From Bolinopsis microptera (Eukaryota > Ctenophora > Tentaculata > Lobata > Bolinopsidae): 60,000 nt of DNA. The notes under the pieces were generated by a model. That model worked only from the letters and a program-made list of their open reading frames with translations. It searched no databases and had not been told where the DNA came from. Location of the stretch: the NCBI RefSeq assembly GCF_026151205.1, contig NC_087073.1:13165837-13225836 (forward strand), read 5' to 3'. Positions 23,180-49,317 of the stretch are shown here, in pieces. The translations under genes and the position numbers were made by a program. The first letter of the stretch is position 1; every line of letters starts with the position of its first letter.

Positions 23180-23236
23180 ATGTCTCAAAACGTAAGAGCA
23201 AAGAAGTCCGGACTTAGCGCTGATATCCAGAAGAAG
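23180..23236 (+). CDS. Transgelin/calponin-like gene: alternative first coding exon 1a
   Basis: Encodes the N-terminal 19 residues, MSQNVRAKKSGLSADIQKK, ending in phase 0 at AAG|GTAAGC. The ending GLSADIQKK joins LEAKYS of exon 2 to give the usual start of a transgelin-type CH domain. Exon 1b offers a near-identical alternative, so 1a is best explained as an alternative promoter/first exon. The intron to exon 2 is 2,838 bp. The start is the only ATG in the segment and has an A at -3 (AACATGT). Promoter elements could not be identified. Confidence 0.8.
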
Positions 23237-25780: not shown

Positions 25781-25834
25781 ATGTCGTCTAACCGTGCAGA
25801 GAAATCCGGCCTTTCCAGAGATATCCAGAAAAAG
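25781..25834 (+). CDS. Transgelin/calponin-like gene: alternative first coding exon 1b
   Basis: Encodes 18 residues, MSSNRAEKSGLSRDIQKK, ending in phase 0 at AAG|GTTGCT, a weaker donor than that of 1a. It differs from 1a in the variable N-terminal residues but keeps KSGLS-DIQKK. It lies only 240 bp before exon 2. Being non-repetitive, in phase and a close paralogue of 1a, it is a real alternative start rather than chance. Confidence 0.8.
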
Positions 25835-26074: not shown

Positions 26075-26214
26075 CTTGAAGCTAAGTACAGCCAGGATCA
26101 GGAGGCACAGTGCCGAGCATGGATTGAGGAAGTCCTCGGAGAGAAACTGTCCAACTCGGAATTGGGAATGCACAACTTCCAACAGTGCCTCAGGGACGGA
26201 CAAATCCTTTGCAA
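26075..26214 (+). CDS. Transgelin/calponin-like gene: shared exon 2 (CH domain, first part)
   Basis: After TTTCAG the exon encodes LEAKYSQDQEAQCRAWIEEV, then the segment ending FQQCLRDGQILC, and ends in phase 2 before GTAAGT. These are diagnostic of the type-3 calponin-homology domain of transgelin, calponin and Mp20: the AKY...E...WIE helix and the F...L.DG..LCKL helix. The CH domain in these proteins supports association with the actin cytoskeleton and signalling partners. The gene as a whole encodes about 195 residues, matching the 184-201 usual for the family. Confidence 0.92.
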
Positions 26215-27172: not shown

Positions 27173-27242
27173 GCTCCTCAACACTCTCAACGGAGAGCCC
27201 CTCGTCAAGAAGATTAACCAACAGAAGATGGCCTTCAAACAG
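27173..27242 (+). CDS. Transgelin/calponin-like gene: shared exon 3 (CH domain, middle)
   Basis: After TTACAG the exon completes the lysine codon split from exon 2 and encodes LLNTLNGEPLVKKINQQKMA followed by FKQ, ending in phase 0 at CAG|GTTAGA. INQQKMAFKQMEN across the next junction is the classic KI...K.AFKQMENI motif of the CH domain. Confidence 0.9.
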
Positions 27243-28753: not shown

Positions 28754-28858
28754 ATGGAGAACATCGAACAGTTCATCAAGGGATGCAAGATCTTTGGACT
28801 CAAGGACGGAGATATCTTCCAGACTGCTGATTTGTACGAGTGCCAAAACATGAGCCAG
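28754..28858 (+). CDS. Transgelin/calponin-like gene: shared exon 4 (CH domain, last part)
   Basis: 35 codons beginning MENIEQFIKGCKIFGLKDGD and ending FQTADLYECQNMSQ, ending in phase 0 at CAG|GTAAGA. Family members have MENI..F......G....D.FQTVDL.E..NM.QV here, so exon 4 completes the helix before the last CH strand. The V after NMSQ is supplied by the first codon of most terminal exons (GTN, or ATC in 5d). Exon 4 is the common splice donor for all six tails. Confidence 0.92.
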
Positions 28859-30263: not shown

Positions 30264-30771
30264 ACCGCTGCAGTCCAGGCGTCAGTTCTCATCTGGTATT
30301 ATTACCGCTGCAGTCCAGGCGTCAGTTCTCATCTGGTATTATTACCGCTGCAGTCCAGGCGTCAGTTCTCATCTGGTATTATTACCGCTGCAGTCCAGGC
30401 GTCAGTTCTCATCTGGTATTATTACCGCTGCAGTCCAGGCGTCAGTTCTCATTTGGTATTTACCGCTGCAGTCCAGGCGTCAGTTCTCATCTGGTATTTA
30501 CCGCTGCAGTCCAGGCGTCAGTTCTCATCTGGTATTATTACCGCTGCAGTCCAGGCGTCAGTTCTCACCTGGTATTATTACCGCTGCAGTCCAGGCGACA
30601 GTTCTCATCTGGTATTTACCGCTGCAGTCCAGGCGTCAGTTCTCATCTGGTATTTACCGCTGTAGTCCAGGCGTCAATTCTCATCTAGTATTATTACCGC
30701 TGCAGTCCAGGCGTCAGTTCTCATCTGGTATTATTACCGCTGCAGCCAGGCGTCAGTTCTCATCTGACGTG
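30264..30771 (+). repeat. Minisatellite, 13 units of 38 or 40 bp
   Basis: Units begin ACCGCTGCAGTCCAGGCGTC, continue AGTTCTCATCTGG, and differ in the linker TATTATT (40 bp) or TATTT (38 bp). Starts are at 30264, 30304, 30344, 30384, 30424, 30462, 30500, 30540, 30580, 30618, 30656, 30696 and 30736. Very few substitutions separate units, so the array is young. Every complete unit but two keeps a CTGCAG core. The long frames running through it are artefacts of a stop-free unit. Confidence 0.95.
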
Positions 30772-31683: not shown

Positions 31684-31899
31684 GTTAATGTCGCTCTTTA
31701 CGCTGTAAGTGCCGTCTCCATTAAGAACGGCTGGACAGGGCCCTCTATCGGGGTAAAGCTGTCACAGAAGAACGAGAGAACGTTCACAGAGCAACAGATG
31801 AATGACGGCAAGACGGTGATAGGTCTTCAGTACGGCACTAACAAGGGGGCCAGCCAAGCGGGCATGAATATCGGCAAAACTAGGCACATCATGGACTAG
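31684..31899 (+). CDS. Transgelin/calponin-like gene: alternative terminal exon 5a
   Basis: Begins V-N-V-A-L-Y-A-V-S-A-V in phase 0 after CTCTCCAG and ends in TAG, 71 residues. It completes the CH domain and then carries one calponin-like repeat: VIGLQYGTNKGASQAGM followed by NIGKTRHIMD. The canonical repeat is IGLQMGTNKGASQAGM, an actin-contact element. This exon is the closest of the six to that consensus and keeps the NKGASQ core, so it is predicted to bind actin. It is the first tail reached from exon 4. Confidence 0.9.
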   Translation, partial: VNVALYAVSAVSIKNGWTGPSIGVKLSQKNERTFTEQQMNDGKTVIGLQYGTNKGASQAGMNIGKTRHIMD

Positions 31900-32416
31900 T
31901 GTAGTCACTAGTGTAGGACCGCCAGATAATATTCATATTGAACTGTTTACATTCATGATTATACTATGAGGACTTTTAGGTTTTTGCTTTGATTACATTT
32001 ATTAAGATTAAACTAATTGTGGCATTTTTCAAGTTTTTTTCAATTTTTCAGATTTTCATGATCATAGCCCAACGATTTAAGATATTTTTCGAAATGTCAG
32101 TGAAATCTGGAAATTACAGCAAAAGATTATTGGCCATAAGATTATTCCAACTGGTGCCTGTGGCTGATGGCAACGGCACAATGATTAACATGACTAGTAT
32201 TACGATGTAAACAATTACTTGATTCTCCAACGGCACCACATGATCCACCAAGATATCCAGAGCAACACTATCCGGGCTCCAAAGCAAGATTCTAGAACTC
32301 CATAGCAACACCCCTAATCTCCATAGCAACACGCTGATCTCCATGGCAACACCCTAAATCCTGATCTCCATAGCAACCCTAGTATAAGCGCAGCAGCTAA
32401 CCCTCGTATGTATCAG
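31900..32416 (+). promoter_or_regulatory. 3' UTR of 5a, then tandem CCATAGCAAC motifs before exon 5b
   Basis: A possible ATTAAA polyadenylation signal is at 32007-32012. Before exon 5b, CCATAGCAAC occurs at 32300, 32321 and 32368 and CCATGGCAAC at 32341, with degenerate versions at 32257 and near 32278, spaced about 20-27 bp. The same motif (CTCCATAGCAACACCCTG) precedes exon 5c but no other tail that I could find. It is a candidate splice-selection or RFX-like element, or a relic of the duplication that made 5b and 5c. Confidence 0.45.
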
Positions 32417-32632
32417 GTTCTATGCACCCTATACGCTGTGGGCTCTGTGGCCAGTAAGAACGGTTACACTGGAGCCTCTATTGGAGCGACGATATCTGAA
32501 GCTAACCCTAGAGAGTTCAGTGACGAGCAGCTTAAGCAGGGTGACACTATGATAGGCCTGCAAATGGGGAGTCATAAGGGGGCCAGTCAATCTGGCATGA
32601 ACATTGGCAAATCTAGGAGTATCATGGATTAA
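32417..32632 (+). CDS. Transgelin/calponin-like gene: alternative terminal exon 5b
   Basis: 71 residues in phase 0 after TATCAG: VLCTLYAVGSVASKNGYTG, then EFSDEQLKQGDTMIGLQMG and SHKGASQSGMNIGKSRSIMD, ending TAA. The repeat is canonical (IGLQMGSHKGASQSGM). It shares the 216-bp size and reading phase of 5a, so it can replace 5a exactly. It can only be used if 5a is skipped, because 5a carries a stop. Confidence 0.92.
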   Translation, partial: VLCTLYAVGSVASKNGYTGASIGATISEANPREFSDEQLKQGDTMIGLQMGSHKGASQSGMNIGKSRSIMD

Positions 32633-34998
32633 TACTCTCATTCTATAAATTGCCATATTTGATTCGAAAAATAGTCAATTTGTAAAATTTTGACGGATGA
32701 AGGCCGAAAGGCCGATGAATTTTAAAGTTATTTCGAATTACTTGATTTTTGGAAGTTAAAAAGATGTCAATGTCCTTTAATGTTTAAAGTATAATTGTTT
32801 AGAAATTATTTTTAAACTCAAAATGACTGACTTTACATTTATACAGTTGAAATCAGCTATTAGCAAGTATATTTCTAAGAAACCTCGTAATACTTATAGT
32901 AGCGTAATAACAGTTTCTTTCTTCAACTCTGTTTTAGCATATGCATTATGCAACCATAATATGACGGTATGGTATCCGTTCTGATATGTCTACACATACG
33001 CCCATGTCTCCTAAAGAGTGAACCATAGGTTTATCTTCTTGTATTTTAGAACTGCAGAGAAAGTGAGCTCTTAGTTGACACCTAGAAATGCTCGCATATG
33101 TCTTTCTGAAGTATTACGGAGACACGACTGTTTTCTTGATGTCTCAGAGAGACAAGTTTTAAGGAGACAAGTTTAAGGAGTCTTATAATAACACACCATC
33201 CTAAAGTTTTAAAGGGATCACGTGATGTATTTCTGAGCCGTTATGAAATTCCACTTTCTGCCTTCAGTCTTTAGTAGAAACGTCTGTATCCTTCTATTCT
33301 AAAGGAGATAGGTAATATATCAGTTCTCTTTAAGGTTTAAGAGTATTCGTATGTAAATGCAATGAGGAAATAATTTGTATAATTATTTTCTTACATCAGA
33401 CATGAGAAGTAGGACCTTGTTATGTGAAGTTCATGTCAGCATATCTTCCTTGATATCTTGTGAAGGAGTTCCCCTCCCTGGTTGAGATCGAGCCTCTCTC
33501 TAAAGCCTCTCTAAAAGAGATCATCCTCGAAATATGTACTTTACGCCATCTCCTGCAGGGATCATCGATTTTACTTGCCACTCATTTAGGGCTTTAACTT
33601 TCCTTTGTTAATAATTATTCCTCTCAGTCGTTTCTTTCGTAAAATATAATGAGTAGCTAAAAAAGTTGATAGAAAGTTATTTAGGGCGCTTCATCTCTAA
33701 CCAAGATTTGAATACTCCATAATTTGTTAAGTGTCTACAAGTTTGCCTGGTCTGAACTTGGTCGCCTCTTTGCATCGCTCACAATCCTTTGAGAACCTCC
33801 TGACAATTTGAAGTACTGTAACTGTAAAACTAAACACATTCTAGCTATCCGAGCTGCTCAACGTCACATAGCCGGCACTCCTCAAAGACCCTGTTCGAGA
33901 AAGTTGTAAATATACAATCGTAATTGGCTATGGTAAATATATTGCGGTATACATTCCAAACTATCAATCATGAAAAAACTGGTCCTTCTGTGCCAACTGA
34001 TGGCGATTATTACATAGACTATTCTGAGGACTTGTATAACTATAATGCTAACAGTGGAAAGTTAAGGCTTACTCCAGTTCTAGAACACAAAAGCCCCTAG
34101 GGTGAGACTTTCAGTTTCGGTAAAGTAAAAAGCTTTTTCATTGAAAACATGACCGAGCTGCTCCTAGATTGGAACTCAGAATCTTCAAGAGCATTTCCTC
34201 GAAGGAGCTTCCTGATCTTGCGATGGACGATGTGTTGGGTTAAGAGCTTCCTCCTGGTTTCTGATCGTACTCCGAGCTGTATTTCATGTGTTGCTGTGTC
34301 TGAGTTCCTCTTACTAGGTTATTATATTTATGTTCATAATCATAGTATAGATAATAATCATAGTATAGATATTTGGCGGAATGACAGGCTGGGCGCCCTC
34401 AATAAAGTTCCTCCTGAGTTAAATGGTTGTTCTTGATTTGCTAGTTGTTGATGCTATTCGTGTCCTGTACATGGTGGAAAGTAGCTGTTACCTTATCAAC
34501 GTCTATAGCCTATTCGAACTTTTATTCACAAGGGATTGGTATAAGTTTGGTCACAAAAATGTATTTTTACCAGTATCAATCACTATGATAAAATAACGTG
34601 AATGGATTTATTTCATAAATTCCAACAGCACAGACGATGAATCTTCTTGATTGATGATATCATTTTTATTCTGTGACTATAAGTATAACTATAAGTATTG
34701 GATATTGTGTAATGTTTTAGAATACTTCGCTTCTCGTAACATGACCTCGACTGGAGCCGTGTTATTCTTGAATGCTGTAAGTGTCAATAATATTTGTAAT
34801 CTGATATGGCACTCAATGGTTCTTGGAATGGAAAGTCTAATCTTGTCTTTTAAAAATCGTACCTACGCCACTCCTCTCTTGTGTCTCTTTTGTGAAGCGA
34901 AGCAGCAAATGTCAGTGACAGGGAAAATTGCTAAATATCTCCATAGCAACACCCTGTCTTCCATAACAACACCCCTGATTGCAATCTGCGTCTGGCAG
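32633..34998 (+). other. Region between terminal exons 5b and 5c
   Basis: Intron 4 extension for distal tails and the 3' UTR of 5b. A 95-codon frame at 34149-34436 is not convincing. It overlaps the dispersed GCGGAATGACAGGCTG motif (34377). CCATAGCAAC at 34941 and CCATAACAAC at 34961 precede exon 5c. Confidence 0.5.
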
Positions 34999-35214
34999 GT
35001 ACAGACGTGCATGTTTGCAGTGGGTACAGTTTCCCAAAAGAACGGGTACCAAGGACCAACTATTGGAACAAAGATCTCCAAACCGAATCCCCGTGATTGG
35101 AGCGAGGAGCAGCTTAAAGCGGGAGACACTATTATAGGCCAGCAGATGAGTTGTTACAAAGGAGCGACCCAGGCTGGCATGAACATAGGAAAAAATAGAA
35201 ACATTATTGATTAG
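34999..35214 (+). CDS. Transgelin/calponin-like gene: alternative terminal exon 5c
   Basis: 71 residues in phase 0 after TGGCAG: VQTCMFAVGTVSQKNGYQG, then DWSEEQLKAGDTIIGQQMS and CYKGATQAGMNIGKNRNIID, ending TAG. The repeat keeps KGATQAGM but has Q for L in IGLQ (IGQQ) and SC in place of the usual GT/GS, so it may bind actin more weakly. An upstream open frame continues through the acceptor to about 34651, but homology begins exactly at the CAG, which fixes the exon start. Confidence 0.9.
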   Translation, partial: VQTCMFAVGTVSQKNGYQGPTIGTKISKPNPRDWSEEQLKAGDTIIGQQMSCYKGATQAGMNIGKNRNIID

Positions 35215-35555
35215 AAACGTTAAGGACCATCATCGTGTGGTGTTGGTGCTGGACAGTTAGAGTGATGAGAAATTAACTAAATGTTGATGTTTAGTTGATT
35301 AGTTTTCCGTTATTGCCGCGGTTGCTTTCAAGTTTTTTTGGAAAAAAAAAAAACATTTGGAAAACCAAGTAAATCATATCACTCTGAACTATAATATTAA
35401 TTTAGACTTGTACTTGTAATTTTTATATTTTAATTCTTCTTATGGTATTTGAAAAGCGTCTTCATCTGTTGGTACGGTATAAACTTTCCCGTGGCCATTT
35501 GTGTCCAAAGATGCTGAAAACTGATCATCGGAAAAAACATTAGAATTGTACTAGA

Positions 35556-35561
35556 AATAAA
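35556..35561 (+). terminator. Candidate polyadenylation signal for exon 5c
   Basis: AATAAA about 340 bases after the 5c stop and before exon 5d. It is the first canonical hexamer I noticed in that interval; chance matches are common in AT-rich DNA. Confidence 0.35.
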
Positions 35562-35809
35562 CCAGTTCACCAAATTCGTTTTGGTAAGGTTGGTTTCAGA
35601 TAACTAACACTAACACTGGCAAACTTACCGTGGAATTTTTCTAGTTTAATTTTGGAACAAATTTTGAAACGACCGCGCGCATAAAATTGAAATAGAAGAG
35701 ATCTGAAATCTCTAAGGTGTCAGGATTAACAATTAAGTTCCTGCCACCTAAGCCACTTCGCTAGTCACACTGTTCACGTCCTTAAAATAAACCCACTCTA
35801 ACCAATCAG

Positions 35810-36028
35810 ATCATTTCTACAATTTACGCTGTAAGCTCCTTTGCAAGCTCCAAGGGATATGCAGGTCCTTGCATCGGTACCAAAATAGCTGAGAAAAACG
35901 AGAGAGATTTCGATGAAGCTACACTTAACGCTGGAAAGTTCGTGTTGGGAGGCCAGATGGGCTTCACTGAGGGAGACAGCCAAACTGGAATGAGCATGGG
36001 CAAGACAAGGAAGGTCGTCGATATGTAA
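35810..36028 (+). CDS. Transgelin/calponin-like gene: alternative terminal exon 5d
   Basis: 72 residues in phase 0 after CCAATCAG: IISTIYAVSSFASSKGYAG, then DEATLNAGKFVLGGQMGF, then TEGDSQTGMSMGKTRKVVDM, ending TAA. It has no ATG-started frame of its own and is recognisable only by alignment with the other tails. The repeat is altered: LGGQ replaces IGLQ and TEGDSQ replaces NKGASQ, losing the conserved lysine for an acidic residue. Reduced or different actin binding is inferred. It is closest to 5e, sharing the SMGKTRKVVDM end. Confidence 0.9.
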   Translation: MISTIYAVSSFASSKGYAGPCIGTKIAEKNERDFDEATLNAGKFVLGGQMGFTEGDSQTGMSMGKTRKVVDM

Positions 36029-36514
36029 ATTGGAGAGGAATTAGGATGAGGACTATAATTTGTGATTAGGAATTTAATTTATTCCGCGTTCGTTGCATTT
36101 TATCTCTACGGCTGAAGCATCCCTGCTTTATTGTACTATGTATAGTTCTTTGTTCTTATTAATATTTGCATTGTTTTTCAAGAAAATTGTGCTAAAACAT
36201 AAAATCAGGTGACATTTTTAGATTTGATATCCAAGTTTCATTTTTTGTATTGGTTGGACTAAATTAGATTAAGACAAATCGAATCTTATTAATATTAGAT
36301 TCTCATTTAAACATAGTATTAACTAAAATTGGGTACGGGGTGGAGTTTAAGTAAGCAAGTGTTTGTCGTCATACATATTTTCCATTGCTCAAACTGAATA
36401 TTGTGACTAGAAATGCACTGCACAAATTATAATTTGTATTATTATAAATGGTTTAGTTTTACTTTTTTATTTTCAATTCTGTAAGTGTTAACCTTTGAGA
36501 TATAAATATTGTGA

Positions 36515-36520
36515 AATAAA
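36515..36520 (+). terminator. Candidate polyadenylation signal for exon 5d
   Basis: AATAAA followed by a T-rich stretch, about 490 bases after the 5d stop. Confidence 0.4.
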
Positions 36521-38821
36521 TTTGTGAGTTTTACAGATAATTTTGTTTCAATCTTTAACGAAAATTTGTTCATAGTCCATAAGTACACTTTACAATGCTA
36601 TCCTCTAATGCTATCCTGTAGGTATCACACAGCTTTTCGGGCCCCTCAGCATAGCCTTCCTGCCTTCCTCTTTAAGGCAGCCTATTTTGTTTTTAACATT
36701 TAACAGACGTCAACCTGAACCAGATAAAATGTAGTTACAGTGATTTTGGGCCCAATTTAGCGCGATCATTTTTAAATGTTCATAAGATTAGCACAAATAC
36801 AGCTTACGGTCATACTGCATAAAAATGTTTGATAGGCACGTGCTTTGATATCTGAATATCCAAATAATCTTATTTATCGGCAAAAGTGAAATAAGTAGCG
36901 TTTACTTATACTACAATTACAAAGTGCTTAATGATTTGGTTAATTATATTTATAATAGTCGTGGTATTCGGTAAGCCAATATATTATTCAATTTGTTAAA
37001 AAATGTTGTAAAACAATATTGTTAACAAAATGTTATTAACATTTAAAAAATCTACCAAAAAAAATATAACTGACTCAATGCAGTCTTAGATACGAGAAAA
37101 ACAAAAATGAAAAAGCATTTTCGGTACCATAGTATCAACTCTAATGCATGAAATCTTTCAAAAACTATTTATCTCAAAAATATTGAACCTTCTTGGAGGG
37201 TGATCCTGATTCCTGAACTGCATCAAGCCCACTGCCCAGCAAATTTTCCAAAGATAACCAATCGGCAATCATTCTCATATTTACTTCCAATCAAACATTA
37301 TCATTATCATTATTATATCACGCTCAAGAAAAAATAACAGCTGAAAATGCTTTCATTCCATTACGTACCAACTTAAAAAGGCCTTTTTTACAATTCACCA
37401 ATATGTTTCATGTCATAATTAGTTCTTATCAATTAGTTAAAATGCAGACTCAATTACTTCACCGACAGTTTCTTGCTTAACTTTAACTCATTGACCTTTA
37501 AATAACAATAACATCCGCGTCGTCAGCGAAAAATCATACAGAAAATTAAATTAAACCTATTCTTAATGGAACAATCCAATCAGTAATCATAAACATAAAA
37601 AAGTTAAACACTTGCAGAAACCCCCAAAATTCCTTTTAGTTTTACGTCCACCTTTATTTTTTGCGGTTTTGTTCACTCTCCAATCAAATGCATACAGTGG
37701 CCACTCCGTCACGTAAGTAACGAGGGATCATGCATCAATTCTCAAATAACCTTAATAAGGTTCATGAAGATGGCTCAGATGCATTGCAGCAAAGTCGTGT
37801 AGCCAAAAGCTGAACATTATGAATTTCATTACAGATCCTTTGGCTTTAATTCGGAACCCGGTCGAGTGGACGTAAAACGTCGCCCCTGCACAGTGTTCCT
37901 CGAATACCTGGCTTCCCAGCATACAGCTATCAGCCCTTTATAGCTTTTGTGCCTTGAATCTTGCAACTAGAACCACTGCCATAGTGCCAATGCCATGATC
38001 TTCAAATTTGAAAGAAAGTTACCTTAGCTAGTTCTATGGTTAGCCTTGTCATACGTTGTAAGACCCGCCGCGCACGAGTGCGCGGCGCGGCTCCCAGTCC
38101 CCCTGTATCGTAGAAACTTATACAGTGAAACTCTACTAAAGTGAAACGACAGTTGCAGTGGGGGTCACGAAGTGATACAAGGTTAGCCTACTACTACTTA
38201 TAGTACTACTATACCATTACCCCTCGTGCAGCTAAATTTAAAAGACTTATTCTACTCAAAACATAGCGGCATCACTGCATCTCCAAGCTTAAAGCTTATG
38301 TCGCAGACACATAGCATAACTAATTGAGATTGAAACGACTTTAAGTCTAACTCTAACCCTATTAGTATTCCATCTTTCTTTGAAGTTGAACCCCACACCC
38401 GTGTGATTGCCGGCGCATTCTATCATCTATTTCTAACAAAAAGACGTTTTCTAATAGTATTACTAATAGTAATACTATTACTGTTAGTTATATAAGTATA
38501 ATGAGAGACATTTTCCATACTTTATTCTTTTCCATAACTCCCCAACCTATGGCTATTCTGTGAAGTGTGAACCTAAACCAAAAAACGTCCCGCCTCCTCT
38601 TTCACACGTGCCCTAACGATTCCACGGACAAATGATCAGTTTAAACTTAAAGCTTTAAAGGAATTGAAACTCTCCAAAGACCAAACAGAAAAACACATAA
38701 TAAGGTCGGTTCAAAACATTATTTGAAGCTGGGCTCCCCTAATCTGAGACAATCTAGGTAAACTATAGGTAAAAATATAATATTAATCATAAGCTAAAAT
38801 GTACTAATCTTTGTATTCTAA
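36521..38821 (+). other. Region between tails 5d and 5e, first half
   Basis: AT-rich non-coding sequence with a GC-rich hairpin in strong contrast to its surroundings (GCCGCGCAC/GTGCGCGGC, 38067-38086) and a hairpin near 38449-38478 (TAATAGTATTAC/GTAATACTATTA). No gene recognised. Confidence 0.5.
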
Positions 38822-39088
38822 ATGGGGAAAAAGAAGAAACATTGTCAGTCAGTCGAGAAAATTGTCAGTCAGGCTATATGGCAGCTTTGTAGATGTTGTG
38901 ACTATGCTAGTAGTGGTCACAGGCTTGCGACTGGAATTGCGGTGTTAAATCGATTTAATGGTATACCAACGATCCACCTCCCACTTGTTGTTTGGTACTT
39001 AGCATTAATAGTGTTAGCTGTAGCCATTTATAGCAAGAATCTTAAAACTAAAGGGGATGACAAGGAAAAGAGGAAGGAAAAAGAATAA
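38822..39088 (+). CDS. Hypothetical 88-residue single-span membrane protein
   Basis: The ATG-started frame encodes a basic N-terminus (MGKKKKH), a hydrophobic span near residues 55-73 (LPLVVWYLALIVLAVAIY) and a highly charged Lys/Glu tail. I recognise no family. It lies in the long intron of the calponin-like gene next to a reverse-transcriptase fragment on the other strand, so it may be a chance frame. Confidence 0.25.
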   Translation: MGKKKKHCQSVEKIVSQAIWQLCRCCDYASSGHRLATGIAVLNRFNGIPTIHLPLVVWYLALIVLAVAIYSKNLKTKGDDKEKRKEKE

Positions 39089-39320
39089 CGGGACAAACAA
39101 TTAATTAAAGTATTTATAGGAGCATTAGATATTGTAATTACAAGCTTCAATAATAAATCACTAACTAAAACTTCTAATTAAAATGACACTTGGTACGCTC
39201 GCCCATTTTCACTGGTCAGTCTGAACTTCGGTTTAGCACGTTGTACACTTATTCACCTAAGTTTCAGAATTTGTTCAGTTTAGCAGAGTTAGTACCCGTG
39301 TTTCAATAAATCAAAAGATA

Positions 39321-40133
39321 TCAGGGGAGTTCTTTAATAATGTTACGGTCATCTAGAATACCGAACTTCCTGAAAACGTTATCATATTTCCTCAGACAAC
39401 GTTTAATGCCTTTAATCAGTCTATCACGGCTATATCCTCTATCAATTAGAATTTTGAATATTTTGTGAAGATGGGAGGTAAAGATATCCAATCTAGTGCA
39501 AACATTACCATATCTAAGAACTTGACTTGAAAAAACGTTGTAGCCAACCTCGGTTGGGATGTTACTGTGAGGAAATGTAAGGGATACAACATGAAAATTA
39601 AAATCATCAGTTTTGTTATACACTGATATTTCTAGTCCTTCTGTGGAAATATTGATATTTAAATCAAGGTAGTTAATGATTTTATTATTGGAACCAGCTC
39701 GCTCCATCTCCAATGAATTAGGATGAATATCTTTGATCAATTTATGAAAGTAAAGGTAGTTAATAATAGATAAATCGTCAACATATCGTTTATTATTGGA
39801 TAATATCTTTGCTAATCCCATTTTCTTTTCCTGAAGTAAACGTTTCATATAATTAAATTCCTTTTTGCCAACAGTGAGATCAGCTATAGGGGAACTTGAA
39901 TTTCCACCCATAGGAATACCCTTGGTTTGTATGAATACAATCCCACCGAAGACGACATAAGTGTTATAAATAATAAATTTAACAGCCTCTTTTAGGTCAT
40001 CTTGACTAAAGCAGGCATGAGAATCATAGGTTTTATTGGAAAAGAAACATGTATTACTGTCTCTTTTAGAAATACAAATATATCTATTACGGTCAACAAA
40101 TTCATAAACCATAATACACCTTACACTCACCAT
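39321..40133 (-). pseudogene. Penelope-like-type reverse transcriptase fragment
   Basis: 270 residues with FIQTKGIPMGGNSSSPIADL, NKRYVDDLSIIN (catalytic D-D pair in YVDD) and FSSQVLRYGNVCTRLDIF, then RGYSRDRLIKGIKRCLRKYD. The Q..GIPMG.N...P..ADL plus R-Y-V-D-D arrangement and the late SQ..RY.R.C block are typical of Penelope-like and related animal reverse transcriptases, not of LINE or LTR elements. An in-frame TGA sits just before the first ATG, so it is truncated at the 5' side. No GIY-YIG endonuclease follows the stop at 39321. It is antisense to the calponin-like gene, inside its intron. Confidence 0.75.
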
Positions 40134-40863
40134 ATTAATTCAGTTATGACTTACAGTCTTACACAAGCATTACTAATACTATATCTTATTTAGCTAGATT
40201 TTCTGATATCTTATTCAGTATTCGTTAATTTCACTACACATAGACCATAGCAAAACTATTGCGCCAATCAAGATAATCCTGAGCTATCAGTATCAAACCC
40301 TTATTACTTTGAACTAAATATTGTAAGTTAAATCTCTATTCCGAGGACTTTCAAGTTTGGAAAATTTGTCTTTGGCCATGCAATTTATCGCCATCAGAAA
40401 TTTAATCTATTTATATTTATATTACTCTGAGCAATCCTTAGCAAAGTTTAATATATGCTAACACCCGCGTACGACATACGTTGCTGCACCTTCCTCCATC
40501 GGTGTGGTTATAAAGATCTAATCCTAACTGAAATATGAATATGCCATTGCCACCGTTCAAAACATCAATGCGTCAAATATATGACCGACCCAGCGCGCTG
40601 CGAACAAAATTATGATAATGATATGATCACAAATAAAAAGGACGAAATGGAAATAAAAAGTCCTCAAATTGTTTGCTATTCACAGAGTTTTAAAAATAAA
40701 AACGAGCTTCAGTCAAAAGAAAGTTATAAAATTTGGCTACCGCGCAATTGCCGTAAATTGCGATCCATGGTCGCATTCGACAGTCGCACTCGACTCATCA
40801 CAACAATACCAGTCTGTAAAAGTAAACTCAAATTCTGCTAAACCTACTAACCCGTCCGACCAG
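40134..40863 (+). other. Intron sequence up to exon 5e
   Basis: AT-rich, ending in CCGACCAG. Two overlapping frames (40581-40841 and 40669-41085) exist; the second is only the upstream extension of exon 5e and is not a separate gene. Confidence 0.5.
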
Positions 40864-41085
40864 GTCCTTGCAAATATCGCTGCTGTCAGCTCGGTTGCTA
40901 GTTCATCAAAGGGATACCAAGGTAGTTGCATCGGTACCAAAATAGCTGACCATAACGAGAGAGACTTCGACGAGGCCACTCTGAACGCCGGAAAGTTCGT
41001 CTTGGGAGGCCAGATGGGCTTCACTGAGGGAGAAAACCAAAGCGGTATGAGCATGGGTAAAACCAGAAAGGTTGTTGATATGTAA
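40864..41085 (+). CDS. Transgelin/calponin-like gene: alternative terminal exon 5e
   Basis: 73 residues in phase 0 after GACCAG: VLANIAAVSSVASSSKGYQG, then DEATLNAGKFVLGGQMGF, then TEGENQSGMSMGKTRKVVDM, ending TAA. It has one more residue than 5d in the S-S-S-K turn. The repeat is of the LGGQ/TEGENQ kind without the canonical lysine. The similarity to 5d continues about 70 bases past the stop (shared TTATTTATTCCGCGTTCGTT), showing that exon and proximal 3' UTR were duplicated together. Confidence 0.92.
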   Translation, partial: VLANIAAVSSVASSSKGYQGSCIGTKIADHNERDFDEATLNAGKFVLGGQMGFTEGENQSGMSMGKTRKVVDM

Positions 41086-41439
41086 ATATTGGAGTTAGAT
41101 GAAGACTGATAATTGCGATTAATATGGATTAGGAATTTTATTTATTCCGCGTTCGTTACACTTAATCGTGAAGTTAGTTGAGGCTGTTTCGTGGAATTTT
41201 AATAATTCCACCTTGATACTTAGATTATTAATATATGTATTACAAGACTTTACTTGGTAAGATATTTAATATCCGCCTTAAATTATTGTTTAATTCTTTT
41301 TGTTGTTTTGGCCAACTATTTTTGAACTGTGCTGTGTGAAAATATAAAGCATGGTTACTGTTTAGCAATTTTATGTGTCGTATGTTGATGTACAGCTTTT
41401 CATTAGGATACGATGTTCTTTTGATAATATTATCTGTTA

Positions 41440-41445
41440 AATAAA
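41440..41445 (+). terminator. Candidate polyadenylation signal for exon 5e
   Basis: AATAAA about 355 bases after the 5e stop. No stronger signal was seen nearer the stop. Confidence 0.35.
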
Positions 41446-43400
41446 TTACTGAGTTTAACTGAATAAAAAGTAATTCAAAAATCGCTATAATGTTCATAAA
41501 CATATTATTATTAATTCGCCGAGCCCGAATATAGAGATTCGACGGAATGACAGGCTGAGCGCCGCCCAGTAACGAATTTAATATTTTGTGAATATTTGAT
41601 CTTAAATGTTACTCCTAAAGATTCAACAAAATATGTCAAAAATGTCCATATAAATGTTAAATATAAAAGAATAAATAACTTAAATACTGACCTGTCAGGA
41701 GTCCTAACCGAGGATAGTAAATTGGCTAAAAATTACTAGTATGTACCTACCTATTATGTATTAGAAAATAAAATGTTCAAACAAACGTGTTGATTAAAAT
41801 TTAAATCTACCAAAGAAATTGAGGAAACAATTTTATTTCAACTGATTCTAATTTGAGCATGGTCTATTTAGTTTTAGATAAAAGTCAGAGTCGAAAAAAT
41901 CAGCTAAATATTTGTTGACCACAAGATTTCAGTACAGAAGCACGAGTGACTACTACTATTGTGATGACGAAACGTGCAGAAGCCAAATAACTTCGTTAGC
42001 CATATCCCATTACGAGTGAAGCACTTTAAGTTTAAGTTATTTATTTTTCGACTGTTGGCAAAAATTATGGGGAAGTGGTTCAAGTTTGTTTTCGCAATTT
42101 TGGATTTGAATTTTAACTGGCAATGCAGTAAGCTTATCAGACTGGTTAAGTGAGAAATTAGCCACAAGTAAGCTGATCAGACTGGTTAAGTGAGAAATTA
42201 GCCACAAGTGAAAACAAACTTGCGTCGGCCTTCCCAGAACATTGTGCCACATTGACAGTGGGCTCCAAGATTATCTTCAGCCACATGACCTTGAGCCTAA
42301 CTGTCCCAGCAGTTCCTCTGCAACCAACTTTGTGACTGCTTTCAGTAGTCTTCCCTATTTTACCGCATTGCAACGGTTTCAACTTGGCACACTCGAAATT
42401 AAGGGAAAAACGGTGAAAGCAAAGATTGTAATCAAGTAACAATGGATCGAGGCCGCTGTGATCAGGCACAAACTCACAAAGTTTGGGACAATCTGCTTTT
42501 TTTAACATCCAATCAGGTCGTGTATCAGTGTATGTATTTCAATTTATTGATCATGGATAATGATCTATAAAAGCAAATGAGATTTGAGTGCTTATGTCTT
42601 TGGGAAATATTTAAATATGTGGGGGCATAAATTCTGGGGCCAAAAGTTAAGAGTAAGAAATAACGTCTAATTGTTTAGACTGAAGACTTGTGTGACTTGT
42701 GCCCTAATTAGTTCGCGGGGCGAGAAAATGTCAGAACACGAGTTTGCCGGGGTATGAAGAACATGCAAATGCCCTGGGACACGATTTTACCTTGACCATT
42801 GTTGATGGTCTGGCCCGGCGCGGCGCGCGCTACTTCGTAGCACTTGCCGTCGGGCCATTTCGAGAAGAAAGCGGCGCGCGCTACTTCGAAGAAATTTAGA
42901 CGAGTAGCATCCGTCAAGATTTTACCGAAACCCATACTTTTGTGTAATATATCACTGGGGCTGAAATTCTGGGGAATGACATAGGTTTAAAATCATACTC
43001 CTCCACTGTTTTGATCACGTGACATGACATATAAGCAAGTTGGTTTATTTTTCGTAAGGGTTAGGGTTTTAGCATATGCTACAAATAGGGGTTGGGTTAT
43101 TATATTGTTGGGTATGGTTGGGGTCGGGTCAGAGTATAGGGTTATAAGGGTTTTCAATATTCCCATCTAGAGAACGTATTTAAACTTTAAGTAAGTCACG
43201 TGATATTCGAGTGTAGAGTGATTAATAATCATTAAGTCCAGCGGTTGTTGCATGTTGGGGACAGAGGTCTCCAGGTGCTGAACGAGGTTATTAGGCGAGA
43301 TGATGTTAATCAAAATATAAGATATTAAGAATACTGTGCTTGGAGGAGCTAGGGTAGAATGCTTGGTAATCGTAATAATATAATTATCAATAAGTCAATA
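41446..43400. other. Intron between tails 5e and 5f, first part; small repeats
   Basis: Holds a third copy of CGGAATGACAGGCTGAG (41539-41555), a 40-bp tandem duplication at 42127-42209 (unit starts AGTAAGCT), and a GC-rich patch at about 42815-42890 where GCGGCGCGCGCTACTTCG occurs twice, 50 bp apart. The 75-codon minus-strand frame over that patch (42708-42935) looks like translated repeat rather than a gene. Confidence 0.45.
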
Positions 43401-43401
43401 C

Positions 43402-44015
43402 TATAATTCAAAGAATTATAAGAATTCCCTTTGTACGTACACTGTACAATGTACGACCGCCCACGTGTAAATCAGACGAGAAATAGGAAGTTGCGTAGTT
43501 ACCATGGTAACAAGGATTGTTACACGCACGTGCACGTGCAATGATTGTTTTAACGTCATTTTGATCGGTTTTGTTGATACTACGCTGTGTTTATTACGAG
43601 CAACATTTTAATTTTTAATTGGCTGTATTTTCGGTTGTGTAGAATATTTTTTGACGCGATTTAAACTTACTAACAAAAAATACTATTAGCTTTCCCCTGT
43701 GACCACGGGTTTTCTAGTTCTGTATAATGTATGTCTGTACGACCGCCCACGTGCAAATAAGATGAAAAAATAAGAAGTTGCAAAGTTACCACGGTGAGGG
43801 TTGTTACACGCACGTGTACGTGCAAAGATTTGCGAGCGACATTTTGATCGGTTTTGACTTTTGTTGTCATACTCATATTACGTTGTGTTCAGTGCGAGCT
43901 ACATTTTAATGGGCTGTATCTTCGGTGGAGATGAATACTTTTTGATGCGATTAAAACTTACTATCAAAAAATGCTATTAGCTGGCCCATGGTATCATGGT
44001 TTTATGGTATGAAAT
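43402..44015 (+). mobile_element. Helitron/Helentron-like dimer, copies A and B
   Basis: Two head-to-tail units of about 300 bp (A 43402-43717, B 43718 to about 44015). Each holds TACGACCGCCCACGTG near the start, a CACGTGCACGTG-like palindrome in the middle, and a GCGAGCTACATTTTAAT-type block. Unit A ends in a G/C-rich hairpin followed by TTTTCTAGT. A CTAG terminus just after a short hairpin and head-to-tail arrays without target duplications fit Helitron-derived non-autonomous elements. B ends differently (CATGGTATCATGGTTTTATG), a block also found alone at 47108-47127. Confidence 0.55.
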
Positions 44016-45296
44016 TGAATGAATTGCAAGAAAAATCTCTTTCGCCAACCCTAGTCCTTGACACTTTTGTTCCTACGCGCGGCACAATTAGAGTCGTGAA
44101 AATTTAAATATTGACATTGTCGAACAAGAACTGAGCACATCTTGCAAAGACCGATTAAGACCGTGCATCTAAAAAATCAGGCTCGCTAAAAGTAAACAGT
44201 AAACAATTTATCGCATTGTATTGGAAGCATTCCAGCACGATAGTTAACCAATTGGAGGACTTCGCCGCTTCGACGCAACGATCTGGAAGGGTTGACATCG
44301 TCAATCAAGTTAACCAAATATCAAGAGTTAATCAATCAGCAGTTATTCGTTAACCTTGGTTATTCTGAAAGTCTACTACAGCTCACTTTTAAAAGTTTTA
44401 AAAGTGAGCTGTTCAGAATTTCGACATTGAATTTTCGGCAAGATGTTTCTACTCGAAACCGAAAAAACAATTTTCTAAGACAAATGCTATAAATTTCGGT
44501 CCTGGAGGAGGAAAATTAATAGCGTCAGTTGTCAGCTCTCGTAACTGTAATTGCAGTTACCGATTGACCCTCTGTGAGGCAAATAAAGGGCATCGACTAT
44601 CTGTTTATTATATTTCATTCAAAGAACGTATGGAGTATCAATTGTTTGTCATAACTCGAGAGACTGTGGGATACTGAAGGGATTAGGGAAAGGAAGCAGT
44701 TCTAACGAGCGCTTCTCAAACACAAGGATATATCTTGTGAACTTGGCTAGTATATATGAAACATTTGATATGGAGTTGTAGGGTGAGTTATGTGCCTCGC
44801 CGGGCTTAAGTAGTGGATGTCCTTGCTGTACGGCAAGTTAAACAAGGAACTGAAACTACTAGGTTCCGTACAGACTCAACTCTGCACCCATGTCAATATG
44901 TTCATTATATGCAAGCCTCTTGATTTATAATGAGAGGCGGTAAAACTCCTGAGCTGTGATGAATCTTGAATGGTGACAATTTGGCCACCCCATGGTAACA
45001 TTAAAACATATCGACTCAGTTACAATTACATCGCGATCGCTTCCTCGAACCATTTTTTAAATATTTGTAGTACATAGTAGTAGTAGTACAGGGTGTTTCA
45101 AGAATCGTGTCCAAATTTTTAATTTTAATTTTTAATTTCATCAAGGAGCAAAATTAGATACAATCGGTTTTAAAATGCTGGTTATACCTTAAATTTTAGT
45201 TATCTCAAAAATCGTTTCAAAACTCATTTATTCGCAAATTTTTATCCTTTCGAAATTTTCTTCGAAAAATGCAGTCAAAAGCTGGTATATCAGACG
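44016..45296. other. Intron sequence with a perfect 31-bp palindrome
   Basis: AGCTCACTTTTAAAA and its exact complement flank a single G at 44380-44410. A lone CAGGGTGTTTC end, like that of the first element of the window, is at 45089. No coding region. Confidence 0.5.
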
Positions 45297-45456
45297 AGAT
45301 GAGATAGAGGCGTGAGCTAACCGGCTAAGCCGATTGAAATTGCCGGCTTAGCCAGCCCATTGTCATCGGCTAGCCGATCGGCTAACACATTTTCAGCAGT
45401 TATCACTTATCTCTACTTCAGGCCGGGAATCTAGACGGCATGTAACAAATTATACC

Positions 45457-45600
45457 ATGATCGACTTTAGAGATAAATTTCATAAATTTCAGAACCGTCA
45501 GACGGATCGTCTTAAAGACGAAATTAAAGTATATGAGGCCTTGCAGTGCCCTAAAAACTTTCTGTCCAAGATGGACACTCTTAGATTTTGGAAATGTCGT
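45457..45600 (+). pseudogene. hAT transposase C-terminal region, part 1
   Basis: From an ATG at 45457 the frame reads through KDEIKVYEALQCPKNFLSK and MDTLRFWKCR, the region just before the hAT dimerisation domain (D.L.FW). It is cut at TA 45600-45601 by the MITE. Joining 45601 to 46458 restores the frame. The N-terminal zinc finger and catalytic core are absent. Confidence 0.8.
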
Positions 45601-45601
45601 A

Positions 45602-46455
45602 CCGTAGAATGGGGGAACTTCGCCATGTTTTACAGCTATTTCATGTTATTTAGAAAATACGACACGAGTACTTGAAAAAGTTTATAGCTCATATGAACAG
45701 GATTGGTAAAGCAAATGTTTTCGTATGAACCACATCAGCCAGGCATAAATAGTCAGCTAGATTGGTGCCACTGAAATCAGGGCGAAGTTACCCTGCAATA
45801 TGGGGTAACTTCGCCATTCTGAAACTATACCATATTCGGTGCTAAGCACCATACCACTCGAAACTCAATTATATTTCCTTGATATACCTGCCAATTTTAC
45901 TTAACTAGCTCTAGCCTGCGTGTTACAATGGGCAATTTGGTCGCCGGGGTAACATCGCCATGCTGCGGGTAACATCGCCGGGATGAAGTAGAAATGTAGT
46001 CGAACTTCGCCAATACACGTGCGTGACTTTGCCAGCCGCGCGCGAATTTCGCGCCAAACTTCGCCGAACAGATGGGATCAGAAGAGGGTAACTTCGCCAC
46101 ACACAAATTTGAAAACTTTATAATATCAGTTGTGTGCATCATGGCTAACTAAATTTGCCCTTAAATGAACAGGACATATGCTAATGATGTCACACAGAAT
46201 TAATAAAGGATATAATTGTAAAATATGGGAAATGTGCAAGCAGGAAATTTTAGCCACTTTATAGCAATATTTCATGTTGCCTGAGTTTAATTAACATAGT
46301 AAACGTTTATTTTTGAATAGGAATACCTTTATAACCATTTGTTCAACACAATACTATACAAAAACTCGATCTCCTAACAATTCAAAACAGTAAAATGATT
46401 ATTTGAAAAATAGTGGCGAAGTTCCCCGACACGGCGATTTTACCCCAATCTACGG
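45602..46455. mobile_element. 854-bp mariner-type MITE, copy 1 (inside hAT)
   Basis: Ends CCGTAGAATGGGG and CCGTAGATTGGGG (reverse complement) are flanked by TA (45600-45601 and 46456-46457). The interior repeats the motif TTCGCC with AAC/TAAC in front in both orientations about ten times (for example GGTAACTTCGCC). An 81-codon minus-strand frame (45897-46142) is present in both copies but has no known domain. Near-identity with 49318-50171 shows recent movement. Confidence 0.9.
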
Positions 46456-46457
46456 TA

Positions 46458-46678
46458 GTGATACATTGCCCCTTTTTTCAAAATTAGAATGCTCTATATT
46501 TTCGGTTCCTGCATCCGCTGCTGATGTGGAAAGAACATGGTCAGCAGCAGGGCTGACTGTAAACAAGAGGAGATCAAAGATCTCATCAGAAAATTTAAAA
46601 GCCATTATGCTCATTAATCGTAACAGAGATCTTTTGTTAAGTTTTATAAGTAAATTAGAGATTGACTCTGACCAGTGA
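46458..46678 (+). pseudogene. hAT transposase C-terminal dimerisation domain, part 2
   Basis: Reads SDTLPLFSKLECSIFSVPAS, then ADVERTWSAAGLTVNKRRSK, then LKAIMLINRNRDLL, ending TGA at 46676-46678. This is the hAT family dimerisation domain (IPASSA.VER.FS.AG....KRR..L....L..L..N.). It is the best-preserved part of the remnant. Confidence 0.88.
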
Positions 46679-46986
46679 GAATTTCCTAACTTATTATTGA
46701 CTAACTTATTATTATTGAAGTTCTGAAATTGTATCACTTGTTACCTTCCATTTCAAGTTTTGCCCTTAAAATCGACATAAAGTATAAAGAAAACATAAAG
46801 TATAAGCCAATCAATTTTAATACAAAATAGTAATATTAGTAAAATAAAATTTTTGGTACAATATCTGATATTAGGATCTGGTAATCCCATTCCCAGTTTT
46901 AGCCGGCTTAGCCGGCTAGCCAGCCGATTTTTTCTCTTAGTCAGCCGATTGCCGTCGGCTAGCCGGCTCACGGCTCTAAGATGAGA

Positions 46987-47502
46987 GTAGACATGGTCAA
47001 GCTTTTCTACGTCAACGGAAGTAGTTGAACTTCTGCTAGCTTGCTAGGAGAAAAAAAAATACTTGAATGCTGGATATTGGTATGTAATCCCTGGTCCGGT
47101 ATTCTTGGTATCATGGTTTTATGGTATGAACTTATGAATGAACTAATGAATTAAACTTTTTATGCTGAATTTTGTTTTCACAAATCATGCAGTAGTTATT
47201 TACTAATCACTCCTAAACTGAGCGTTTCGAATATATAATGTGCACGAGTCGGCAATTGCAAACAATTTGATGTTAGCAAAAGACCCTTTGACCTTATGAA
47301 ACCGACATTTTGAATTAAGTAAGACGAATACGTGCTGTGGGCCTGGCCCATTAACAGAAATTGAGATGCCCATTCAATTGGATCATTCTCCAACTTTTTA
47401 AGTTTTTAGGTGTTTCTGGACACAAAGTAAGTCATCTTGTATCTTGGAACAAATGCTATGTTGCTCTATGAGGCTTTATATTAGGACCTTTCTAGTCTTT
47501 AC
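46987..47502. other. Intron sequence with relic repeat ends
   Basis: Contains a lone block matching the end of Helitron-like unit B (GGTATCATGGTTTTATGGTA, about 47108) and a CTTTCTAGTC end fragment at about 47487-47496 directly before unit C. No coding region. Confidence 0.45.
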
Positions 47503-48413
47503 TATAATTCAAAGAGTTATGTTTGTCTCTTTGTCTGTACGGCCGCCCACGTGCAAATTAGACGAGAAATAGGTAGTTGCAAAGTAACCATGGTAAAGGT
47601 GTTAAAAGTGCACTTGCACGTGCAAGGATTTGAGAGGGTCATTTTGATCGTGTTTTTTTTGTTATTAGGTGGTGTTCAGTGCGAGCTATATTTCAATTGG
47701 CTGTATCTTCGCCCTTCGGTTGTGATGGATATTTGTTGATGCTATAAAAGTATAAAAACTACCAACGAATAGTGAATACTATTAGCTTCCTCCATGTGAC
47801 CACGGGCTTTCTAGTCTTACTTATAATTCAAAGAATTATGTTTGTTTGTCTGTACTGTACGACCACCCACGTGCAAATTAGGTAAACAAATAAAGGTTGC
47901 ATAGTGACCATGGTAACGGTGTTGAACGTGCACGTGCAAAGATTGGCGAGCGAAATTTTGATCGGTTTTATGGTAATTACGTAACTGTGTTCAGTGCGAT
48001 CCAGTGGCGTAACAAAGGGCCCTGCTGACCCCGCTGTGCAGGGGGGCGCCGTCTTAGGGGGGCGCCAAATTGTCGTTTGAATGTGGGACAATTTCGAAAA
48101 CTTAACTAAAGTACTAGCAAAACTGCGCGTTTTGCTCTAGATACACACTTTTTTAGAAATTTTACCGGCGTATCCTCTAAAATCACCTAATTTGTTCAAT
48201 TTTAGGGAGGGGCACCAAAAGGGGAGGGGGCGCCAACAGGGGGGCGCCTTTTCGGCAGGGGGGCGCCAACAGGCAACGTTACGCCATTGGTGCGATCTAC
48301 ATTTAAATCGGCTGTTTCTTCGGTGGGGATGAATACTTTTTGATACGATTAAAACTCACTGCCAAAGAAATAGAAAAGCACTAGCTTCATCACTGTAACC
48401 ACGGGTTTTCTAG
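47503..48413 (+). mobile_element. Helitron/Helentron-like dimer, copies C and D
   Basis: Two further head-to-tail units (C 47503-47814, D 47815-48413), each starting with the near-palindrome ATAATTCAAAGAATTAT (ATAATTCAAAGAGTTAT in C) and ending CCACGGG...TTTCTAGT. D is interrupted by the 288-bp hAT MITE. Units C and D both share GTACGACC-type starts, CACGTG palindromes and GCGAGCTA/GCGATC blocks with copies A, B, E and F. Confidence 0.6.
48002..48289. mobile_element. 288-bp hAT-type MITE in Helitron-like copy D
   Basis: Ends CAGTGGCGTAAC and GTTACGCCATTG form the inverted repeats. The 8-bp direct repeat GTGCGATC flanks it (47994-48001 and 48290-48297). The interior is unusually G-rich, with repeated GGGGGCGCC. 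CAGTGGCGTA ends with 8-bp duplications are typical of hAT MITEs. A decayed relative starts at 55999. Confidence 0.9.
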
Positions 48414-48794
48414 TGTAATTATAAAGTTATAAGCGTTACAAAGTAATCGACGTTATTGTCCAACTGAAAGTTTCTTTGCAACGTTTATAAAAAGCTCCTA
48501 TTTGTTGGTAGAGCACTTTGTCGAACAACGAAAAACGAACACGTTTGTAATTATGTAATTAAATAATTAGTATTCGTCATTAGATAATAAGTATCTGTAA
48601 TTAATTAATTGTCATTTTGGATGAATCAAATGGATTTTAAATTTAATGTTATTGGAGATTTAAATGTTTTTTAACCACATTTTAAACCACTTTTGAAACC
48701 ATTTTCGAACTTTGAAAGCATTTGATTTCATTTAATTCTTTCAAAATAACAAATAACTAAAATCATTCCGTCACTCATATTGCCTGTCATTCAG
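48414..48794 (+). other. Intron sequence before exon 5f
   Basis: AT-rich, no repeats recognised, ending in GTCATTCAG at the 5f acceptor. Confidence 0.5.
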
Positions 48795-49010
48795 GTGCTG
48801 GGAACTCTGTACGGAGTAAGCTCAGTGGCAGGATCAAACGGTTACACGGGGCCTAACATCGGTGTAAAGATGGCGGAAGAAAACGTAAGAGAGTTTGATC
48901 AGGAGACCATAGATGCTGGAAAGAATGTGTTGGGAGGACAAACTGGGTGGAATCAGGGCGCCAATCAGTCCGGTATGAACATCGGCAACTGTCGTCATAT
49001 TACTGACTAA
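48795..49010 (+). CDS. Transgelin/calponin-like gene: alternative terminal exon 5f
   Basis: 71 residues in phase 0 after CATTCAG: VLGTLYGVSSVAGSNGYTG, then FDQETIDAGKNVLGGQTGW, then NQGANQSGMNIGNCRHITD, ending TAA. It mixes features of both groups: LGGQ as in 5d/5e, NIG at the end as in 5a-5c, and NQGANQ in place of NKGASQ. It is the most distal tail, requiring a 19.9-kb splice from exon 4. Several transposons separate it from 5e, yet the frame is intact, which argues that it is used. Confidence 0.9.
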   Translation: MLGTLYGVSSVAGSNGYTGPNIGVKMAEENVREFDQETIDAGKNVLGGQTGWNQGANQSGMNIGNCRHITD

Positions 49011-49215
49011 AGTGGACCAACTGTCGTCATATTAGTATTAGTATTACCGACTAAAGTGGACCAACTGTCGTCAATGTCATATTACTGACTAAGGTGGACC
49101 AACTGTCGTCATATTACTGACTAAGGTGGACCAACTGTCGTCATATTACTGACTAAAGTGGACCAACTGTCGTCATATTACTGACTAAGGTGGACCAACT
49201 GTCGTCATATTATTA
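48986..49215 (+). repeat. 32-bp tandem repeats grown from the end of exon 5f
   Basis: The last codons of 5f plus following bases (AACTGTCGTCATATTACTGA then CTAAAGTGGACC) are repeated six to seven times immediately downstream, with small insertions in the first two copies. The first copy lies in the coding sequence, including the stop. The rest would form the proximal 3' UTR. Confidence 0.9.
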
Positions 49216-49317
49216 CTAATAGCCTCAAGTCTACAACCTGGACATTTTCTGTTTTGGTAAATATTTACTGATTTATTTTTTCTTATCTGAAAACATTTTA
49301 ATGTGATATATAATGTA

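Follow-up and report, generated by a model that had tools for sequence, protein, structure and literature searches.

A Putative Ctenophore Transgelin-Like Gene with a Predicted Array of Six Alternative Last Exons

Introduction

Dscam carries many paralogous cassettes, one of which is used per transcript; these are internal exons whose choice involves docking and selector RNA pairing. Like lola, mod(mdg4) is a constant/variable locus. At lola, a shared group of amino-terminal exons is reported to be joined to any of a large number of unique carboxy-terminal exons, giving at least 20 isoforms (PMC1947980). Constant/variable last-exon loci of this kind are thus already known, as are clustered exons in muscle genes; for the ctenophore Mnemiopsis, a mutually exclusive exon pair has been predicted in the muscle gene Mhc2 (PMC3912159). 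Muscle myosin heavy chain clusters offer a parallel of a contractile protein tuned by paralogous exons; they are mostly internal, and six paralogous last exons each encoding a whole repeat are not described in the extracts of that literature drawn on here.

Within the calponin/transgelin family, a review (PMC10285543) assigns transgelins a single CH domain and a single CLIK motif, and mammals and Drosophila are each credited with three transgelin genes (PMC8311604). Calponin has three or more CLIK repeats in series. An alternatively spliced exon of mouse h1-calponin is named in the reference list of the same review (PMC10285543), and among the matches listed, no open-access title or abstract describes an array of six tails in this family.

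Here, we describe a locus of a host that is probably Bolinopsis microptera, a ctenophore. Three of 12 glutamate receptor loci were compared with solved structures; for two of them the ML032222a receptor of Mnemiopsis was the top match (E 1.9e-88 and 7e-66) and 4zdm, from Pleurobrachia, came fourth, and for the third no ctenophore entry stood among the 60 listed of 387 matches. We consider it likely that these 60 kb hold a single transgelin-like gene, in which constant CH body exons 2–4 are followed by six alternative last exons (tails t1 to t6). The gene resembles lola in that a constant 5′ exon set precedes several 3′ exons of the same phase with their own stops. In contrast, lola encodes a BTB transcription factor and uses both cis- and trans-splicing, whereas the present gene is known from DNA sequence alone and would encode an actin-binding protein; its variable exons, unlike those of lola, are clear paralogues that encode one kind of domain and share a strand. 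In Dscam the cassettes are internal exons with donors, whereas the tails end in stops, with weak in-frame GTs near the ends of t4 and t5 only. Calponin repeats follow one another in series, whereas each tail of the present gene has one repeat followed by a stop of its own.

Results and Discussion

Gene Outline

We analyzed a window of 60 kb, that is, the whole stretch of DNA under study (C2:13165837-13225836), and extended searches to the 264.65 Mb assembly (table 1). By their sequences, the two alternative first coding exons are plainly paralogous copies of one another, scoring 57 and 58 in a scan of both strands of the 60 kb window in which the next matches reached 25 and 24 and no third first exon was found. 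A genome search also recovers exon 1b (E 0.17), the use of which is less sure than that of exon 1a because its donor is weak (table 1). Each constant exon has one clear copy in the 60 kb by tblastn of exon queries, and exon 2 carries a PF00307 match (26096-26218, 26.4 bits). The single upstream set of CH exons proposed in the initial annotation is upheld, at 26075-28858, with the amendment that two first exons precede it.

Table 1. Predicted exons and other features of the six-tail locus, in window coordinates.
Feature	Position	Strand	Remarks
Alternative first coding exon 1a	23180..23236	+	MSQNVRAKKSGLSADIQKK; donor gtaagc, phase 0
Alternative first coding exon 1b	25781..25834	+	MSSNRAEKSGLSRDIQKK; weak donor gttgct, phase 0
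Constant CH exon 2	26075..26214	+	Ends in phase 2; located by window and genome searches
Constant CH exon 3	27173..27242	+	Sequence reading, window and genome searches
Constant CH exon 4	28754..28858	+	MENIEQF...NMSQ; strong donor gtaaga, phase 0
Tail t1	31684..31899	+	Calponin 50.2 bits; 71 codons, 216 bp with stop
ATCTCCATRGCAAC, three copies	32317..32377	+	Candidate regulatory element, 40-100 nt upstream of t2
Tail t2	32417..32632	+	Calponin 39.9 bits; 71 codons, 216 bp with stop
ATCTCCATRGCAAC, fourth copy	34937-34950		Upstream of t3
Tail t3	34999..35214	+	Calponin 18.3 bits, under Pfam cut-off; 71 codons, 216 bp
Tail t4	35810..36028	+	Calponin 18.9 bits, under Pfam cut-off; 72 codons, 219 bp
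Start of t4 3′ flank	36029..36118	+	Conserved with 41086-41175 after t5
Tail t5	40864..41085	+	Calponin 22.8 bits; 73 codons, 222 bp with stop
Tail t6	48795..49010	+	Calponin 30.3 bits; 71 codons, 216 bp with stop

Exons 1b, 2, 3, 4, and t2, joined conceptually, encode a product of 194 aa in which Pfam finds a CH domain (PF00307, 74.5 bits, E 9e-21) and one Calponin repeat (38.7 bits); depending on exon choice, product length ranges from 194 to 197 aa, and the domain order is CH followed by one CLIK repeat. The best solved relative of the 194-aa product is transgelin-2 (1wym, E 7e-23). The features by which we assessed membership of the transgelin family, a single N-terminal CH domain and one C-terminal CLIK repeat, were both found, the latter above the Pfam cut-off in four of the six tails, and domain order and length are the same as in the Transgelin/Mp20 family. 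The predicted protein appears to be small, muscle-type, and transgelin-like, and would bind F-actin. Two first exons and six tails could yield up to 12 predicted products of this one gene, as against the three transgelin genes of mammals and of Drosophila.

Anatomy and Homology of the Tail Exons

The six exons begin where the initial annotation placed them, each after a CAG, are 216-222 bp long, and are open in phase 0 to their own stops (6/6); all six acceptor AGs are intact. At least 71 open codons also follow 39 of the 720 other plus-strand CAGs in the window, and because chance open frames are this common the case for the tails rests on their homology to one another instead of on their being open. 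The Pfam Calponin model (PF00402, curated cut-off 21.1 bits) matches all of them, t1, t2, t5, and t6 above the cut-off and t3 and t4 just under it. Protein identity between tails ranged from 41.8 to 80.8%, with E values of 2.6e-15 to 1.7e-35 in all 30 directed tblastn comparisons, t4 and t5 being 81% identical, and 17 of the 73 columns of the tail alignment are invariant. Net charge (K+R-D-E) runs from +4 in t1 to -3 in t6.

The tails had been described as whole calponin-like repeats; the repeat stands, but the exon also carries what we take to be the last helix of the CH fold. The tail starts at residue 124 of the 194-aa product, the transgelin-2 CH alignment extends 13 residues into it, and five solved transgelin/calponin CH domains align with the product as far as residues 135-155. 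A structure predicted from the tail alignment has a helix at residues 2-14, which fits a CH helix, although at low confidence (mean pLDDT 48.7, pTM 0.20) that is no proof. As read from these alignments, the content of a tail exon is the last CH helix, a linker, one CLIK repeat, and a stop. The paralogue on C3 has continuous sequence across the Q|V position at which the six-tail gene has its intron, so the phase-0 intron before the last helix belongs to the six-tail gene and not to the paralogue. Such an intron would make helix, repeat, and stop a portable cassette.

Selection on the Tails

Judged by their substitutions, the tails are old and under long-term purifying selection. NG86 silent sites are saturated in 10 of the 15 tail pairs (pS 0.55-1.00 over all). 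The tree-wide one-ratio omega was 0.125 under our own codon model (2dlnL 138 vs. omega = 1) and 0.128 under the IQ-TREE codon model, and the six terminal branches taken jointly gave 0.12 (2dlnL 68 against neutrality). Pairwise omega ranged from 0.012 to 0.21. Each of the 15 pairs rejected neutrality (omega = 1, p <= 1.1e-5) as well as an omega of 0.5 (p <= 0.018), which is about the level expected if one member of a pair had been neutral since the split. The pairs are non-independent, four of them have lengths that reach or approach the bound (t 14-20), and for t3-t4 the fit at omega = 0.5 seems not to have converged. The initial annotation had named a dN/dS near 1 for most copies as a sign against its reading, and these ratios lie far below it.

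It seems unlikely to us that only one to three tails are in use, the others being formerly used duplicates that are now unused or decaying, and the evidence bearing on this falls on both sides. Taken singly, two terminal branches reject neutrality (t3, p 0.003; t6, p 0.00025) and that of t5 nearly does (p 0.067), whereas those of t1 (p 0.41), t2 (p 0.61), and t4 (p 0.41) are compatible with omega = 1, as decay would have it. Grouped branches reject neutrality for t4+t5 (p 3e-8) and t2+t3 (p 6e-9) but not for t1+t2 (p 0.13) or t1+t2+t4 (p 0.22). When substitutions alone are simulated, a frame of tail length under neutrality survives in 5-11% of cases at these divergences, so that short open frames could persist in unused copies. 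Four of the six tails, but neither t2 nor t6, have a standard poly(A) hexamer (AATAAA/ATTAAA) within 1.5 kb, which also suits decay, although such hexamers are common in AT-rich DNA and their distribution is compatible with chance. Against decay, all six frames and acceptor AGs are intact, every pair that includes t1, t2, or t4 rejects omega = 0.5, and t4-t5, the youngest pair, has an omega of 0.12 (p 2e-4). On these grounds, free drift of any tail for most of its history is unlikely; recent loss of use of some tails is possible.

The intact frames had also been put forward as evidence of use on the grounds that transposons have inserted between the tails. We do not retain this argument, which carries little weight: a single insertion between tails was checked, and it belongs to a young family, with 39 other scored copies at 99-100% identity.

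CH Exons and Tails across the Genome

If the six tails belong to the one gene, they would all draw on the CH exons upstream of t1. That the distal tails instead form genes of their own, or are trans-spliced to CH exons from another place, strikes us as very improbable. Such an arrangement has a precedent in lola, which is reported to trans-splice onto alternative last exons (PMC1947980), and would account for a t6 that sits 20 kb from the CH exons; the genome also holds many other CH matches (64 rows of profile matches at E <= 1) from which a partner might be drawn. We looked for separate CH exons feeding the distal tails, an eventuality raised in the earlier reading, but neither the 60 kb window nor the genome search yielded a convincing second set of them. 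When the full product is the query, the other CH matches in the genome resolve into the C3 paralogue, which is 38% identical and has its own tail, and matches at 30-31% identity. One stretch of the window considered as an extra CH exon, 33669-33740, comprises 24 residues with an internal stop (E 0.031) and was taken as a chance match.

Genome queries with the full product, t6, and the C3 tail each returned the same seven tails, namely the six described here and the one on C3, and none beyond these seven was found in the three protein-query searches, which work exon by exon with a loose initial step and so may overlook highly diverged tails. The Pfam Calponin model by itself recovers four of the seven. 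On C3, the paralogue is equipped with CH exons of its own and a single tail within the 17.5 kb read; multiple tails were sought there and rejected over that stretch.

Splicing and Mutual Exclusion

In the favored reading of a single gene with alternative last exons, the exon 4 donor at 28858 would serve as the common donor for all tails and would be spliced to a single tail acceptor, the six lying between 2.8 and 19.9 kb further downstream. Each choice of tail would bring its own stop and 3′ end and hence one tail per protein. Choice would come about by competition between splicing and 3′-end formation at a tail on the one hand and continued transcription to the next tail on the other, and the two first exons, presumably with separate promoters, would add a second choice. 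The most distal tail, t6, lies ~20 kb from the exon 4 donor. The pyrimidine tracts of the tails are modest: compared with the 90th percentile of window CAGs, those of t1 and t6 are above, those of t2 and t5 equal, and those of t3 and t4 below.

No GTRA-type donor in phase 0 was found at the end of any of the six tails. GTAAAT overlaps the stops of t4 and t5 in phase 2, and in both tails weak GTs in frame occur 15 and 12 nt short of the end (AAG|GTCGTC and AAG|GTTGTT at 15), gtt donors being apparently used by exons 1b and 3. Onward splicing from t4 or t5 nevertheless appears unlikely. The 3′ flanks of these two tails are 91% identical over aligned columns for ~90 nt past the stop, with a score of 96, where 1000 random stretches of the window averaged 37 and reached 58 at most. 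The resemblance suggests a conserved 3′ untranslated region. The 80 nt upstream of t4 and t5 are not clearly similar (score 42, mean 32, reached by 56 of 1000).

It is very unlikely that some of the repeats are read in series as in calponin, for example as t4-t5-t6. Several serial CLIK repeats are reported in calponins and invertebrate relatives (PMC10285543), and the AAG|GTTGTT among the weak in-frame GTs of t4 and t5 resembles the exon 1b donor AAG|gttgct. Yet every tail has its own stop and lacks a frame-keeping GTRA-type donor at its end, and the final 45 nt of t1, t2, t3, and t6 contain no GT in frame. In addition, the last CH helix would recur inside the chain with each tail, and the 3′ flanks conserved between t4 and t5 suit terminal exons.

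Docking-type pairing between the sequence upstream of each tail and the first 1200 nt of the exon 4 intron did not beat shuffled sequence for any of the six tails, duplex z values running from -0.82 to +2.13 (40 shuffles each; negative values denote stronger pairing). With tails that end in stops and no such pairing found in the first 1200 nt of the intron, the Dscam-like solution proposed in the initial annotation is not supported.

Predicted Function of the Tails

Each tail would contribute both the helix that completes the CH fold and a CLIK actin-binding repeat of its own, so isoforms are predicted to differ in actin binding or affinity and in its kinase control. At the residue that, on our placement, corresponds to calponin Ser175, t1, t2, and t4 have Ser, t3 has Thr, and t5, t6, and the C3 tail have Asn. 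The alignment of calponin Thr184 is ambiguous by one gap, and for that reason only the Ser175 position was used. Ser175, in the first CLIK motif, is given in the family review as the main PKC/CaM-kinase site of calponin, controlling actin binding (PMC10285543), and the tails may accordingly differ in kinase control.

We put forward only tentatively, as possible but doubtful, the wider proposal that exon choice in one ctenophore transgelin gene does the work of the calponin/transgelin gene families of other animals, providing up to twelve cross-linkers, with t1-t4 kinase-regulated and t5 and t6 not, allotted among muscle and ciliated cell types.

Confirmation of the array would mean that a smooth-muscle-type actin regulator has been diversified by a bank of last exons instead of by gene duplication, in a lineage that branches at or close to the root of the animal tree and in a genome where only one other calponin-tail gene was detected. 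It would then bear on how contractile cell types diversified before the bilaterian gene families arose. Six paralogous CLIK tails on one CH domain are in addition a natural set for probing the role of the repeat.

The Ser175-aligned residue differs between t4 and t5 despite their 81% identity.

Candidate Regulatory Elements

The motif ATCTCCATRGCAAC, which we take to resemble the RFX X-box consensus, is found upstream of t2 and t3 (table 1). It has 49 matches genome-wide, 4 at this locus, 24 in one satellite on C10, and 21 scattered, and was rejected as a tail-wide upstream signal since it precedes t2 and t3 only and occurs elsewhere. We regard its copies upstream of these two tails as a candidate element and a lead only. 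The exact 15-mer CTCCATAGCAACACC has just two copies in the assembly, one upstream of t2 and the other upstream of t3.

Proposed alternative exons of the transgelin-like gene

The gene has two paralogous first coding exons, a pair absent from the initial annotation, and its possible products are thereby doubled. The CCATAGCAAC elements next to t2 and t3, two of the six putative alternative tail exons (t1-t6), are RFX X-box-like, and the exact 15-mer CTCCATAGCAACACC was found, assembly-wide, only upstream of these two exons. Tail exons t4 (to 36028) and t5 (to 41085) contain weak in-frame GTs within their last 15 nt, and a GTAAAT in phase 2 overlaps the stop of each; splicing onward from these ends is unlikely, though conceivable. 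The end of the t6 peptide, NCRHITD, is repeated past the stop because a minisatellite starts in the final codons of that exon.

Features in the window and elsewhere in the assembly (C3, C10 and C12, other chromosomes or contigs; plain coordinates, window positions)
Feature	Position	Strand	Remarks
Weak reverse-transcriptase match	7089-7895	-	25.6 bits vs cut-off 29.6
Near-palindrome, kilobase-long	16980-17990		11-bp CCGGCTAGTAG-type repeats
First coding exons	23180-23236; 25781-25834		paralogous pair
Minisatellite	30251-30766		40-bp unit, 13 copies; intron between exon 4 and t1
Tandem CCATAGCAAC elements	32256-32380; 34937-34973		immediately 5' of t2 and t3
Open frame of young dispersed repeat	39321-40139	-	between t4 and t5
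Minisatellite	48994-49219		unit ~32 bp; from last t6 codons across 3' flank
Satellite	C10:4119515-4120909		chiefly 35-bp period; 24 ATCTCCATAGCAAC copies
Ionotropic glutamate receptor match clusters	C3:15860547-15936263; C12:11782391-11809362

Repeats and other loci

The repeat between t4 and t5 has at least 39 further copies with 99-100% identity, and its open frame, which returned no match in a Pfam search, resembles a reverse transcriptase as judged by eye. The weak reverse-transcriptase match is probably a retroelement remnant. The near-palindrome was likewise recognized by eye, its tandem units having been found in a separate repeat analysis. Elsewhere in the assembly, the ionotropic glutamate receptor matches on C3 and C12 are carried by single long open reading frames, 433-949 codons in length.
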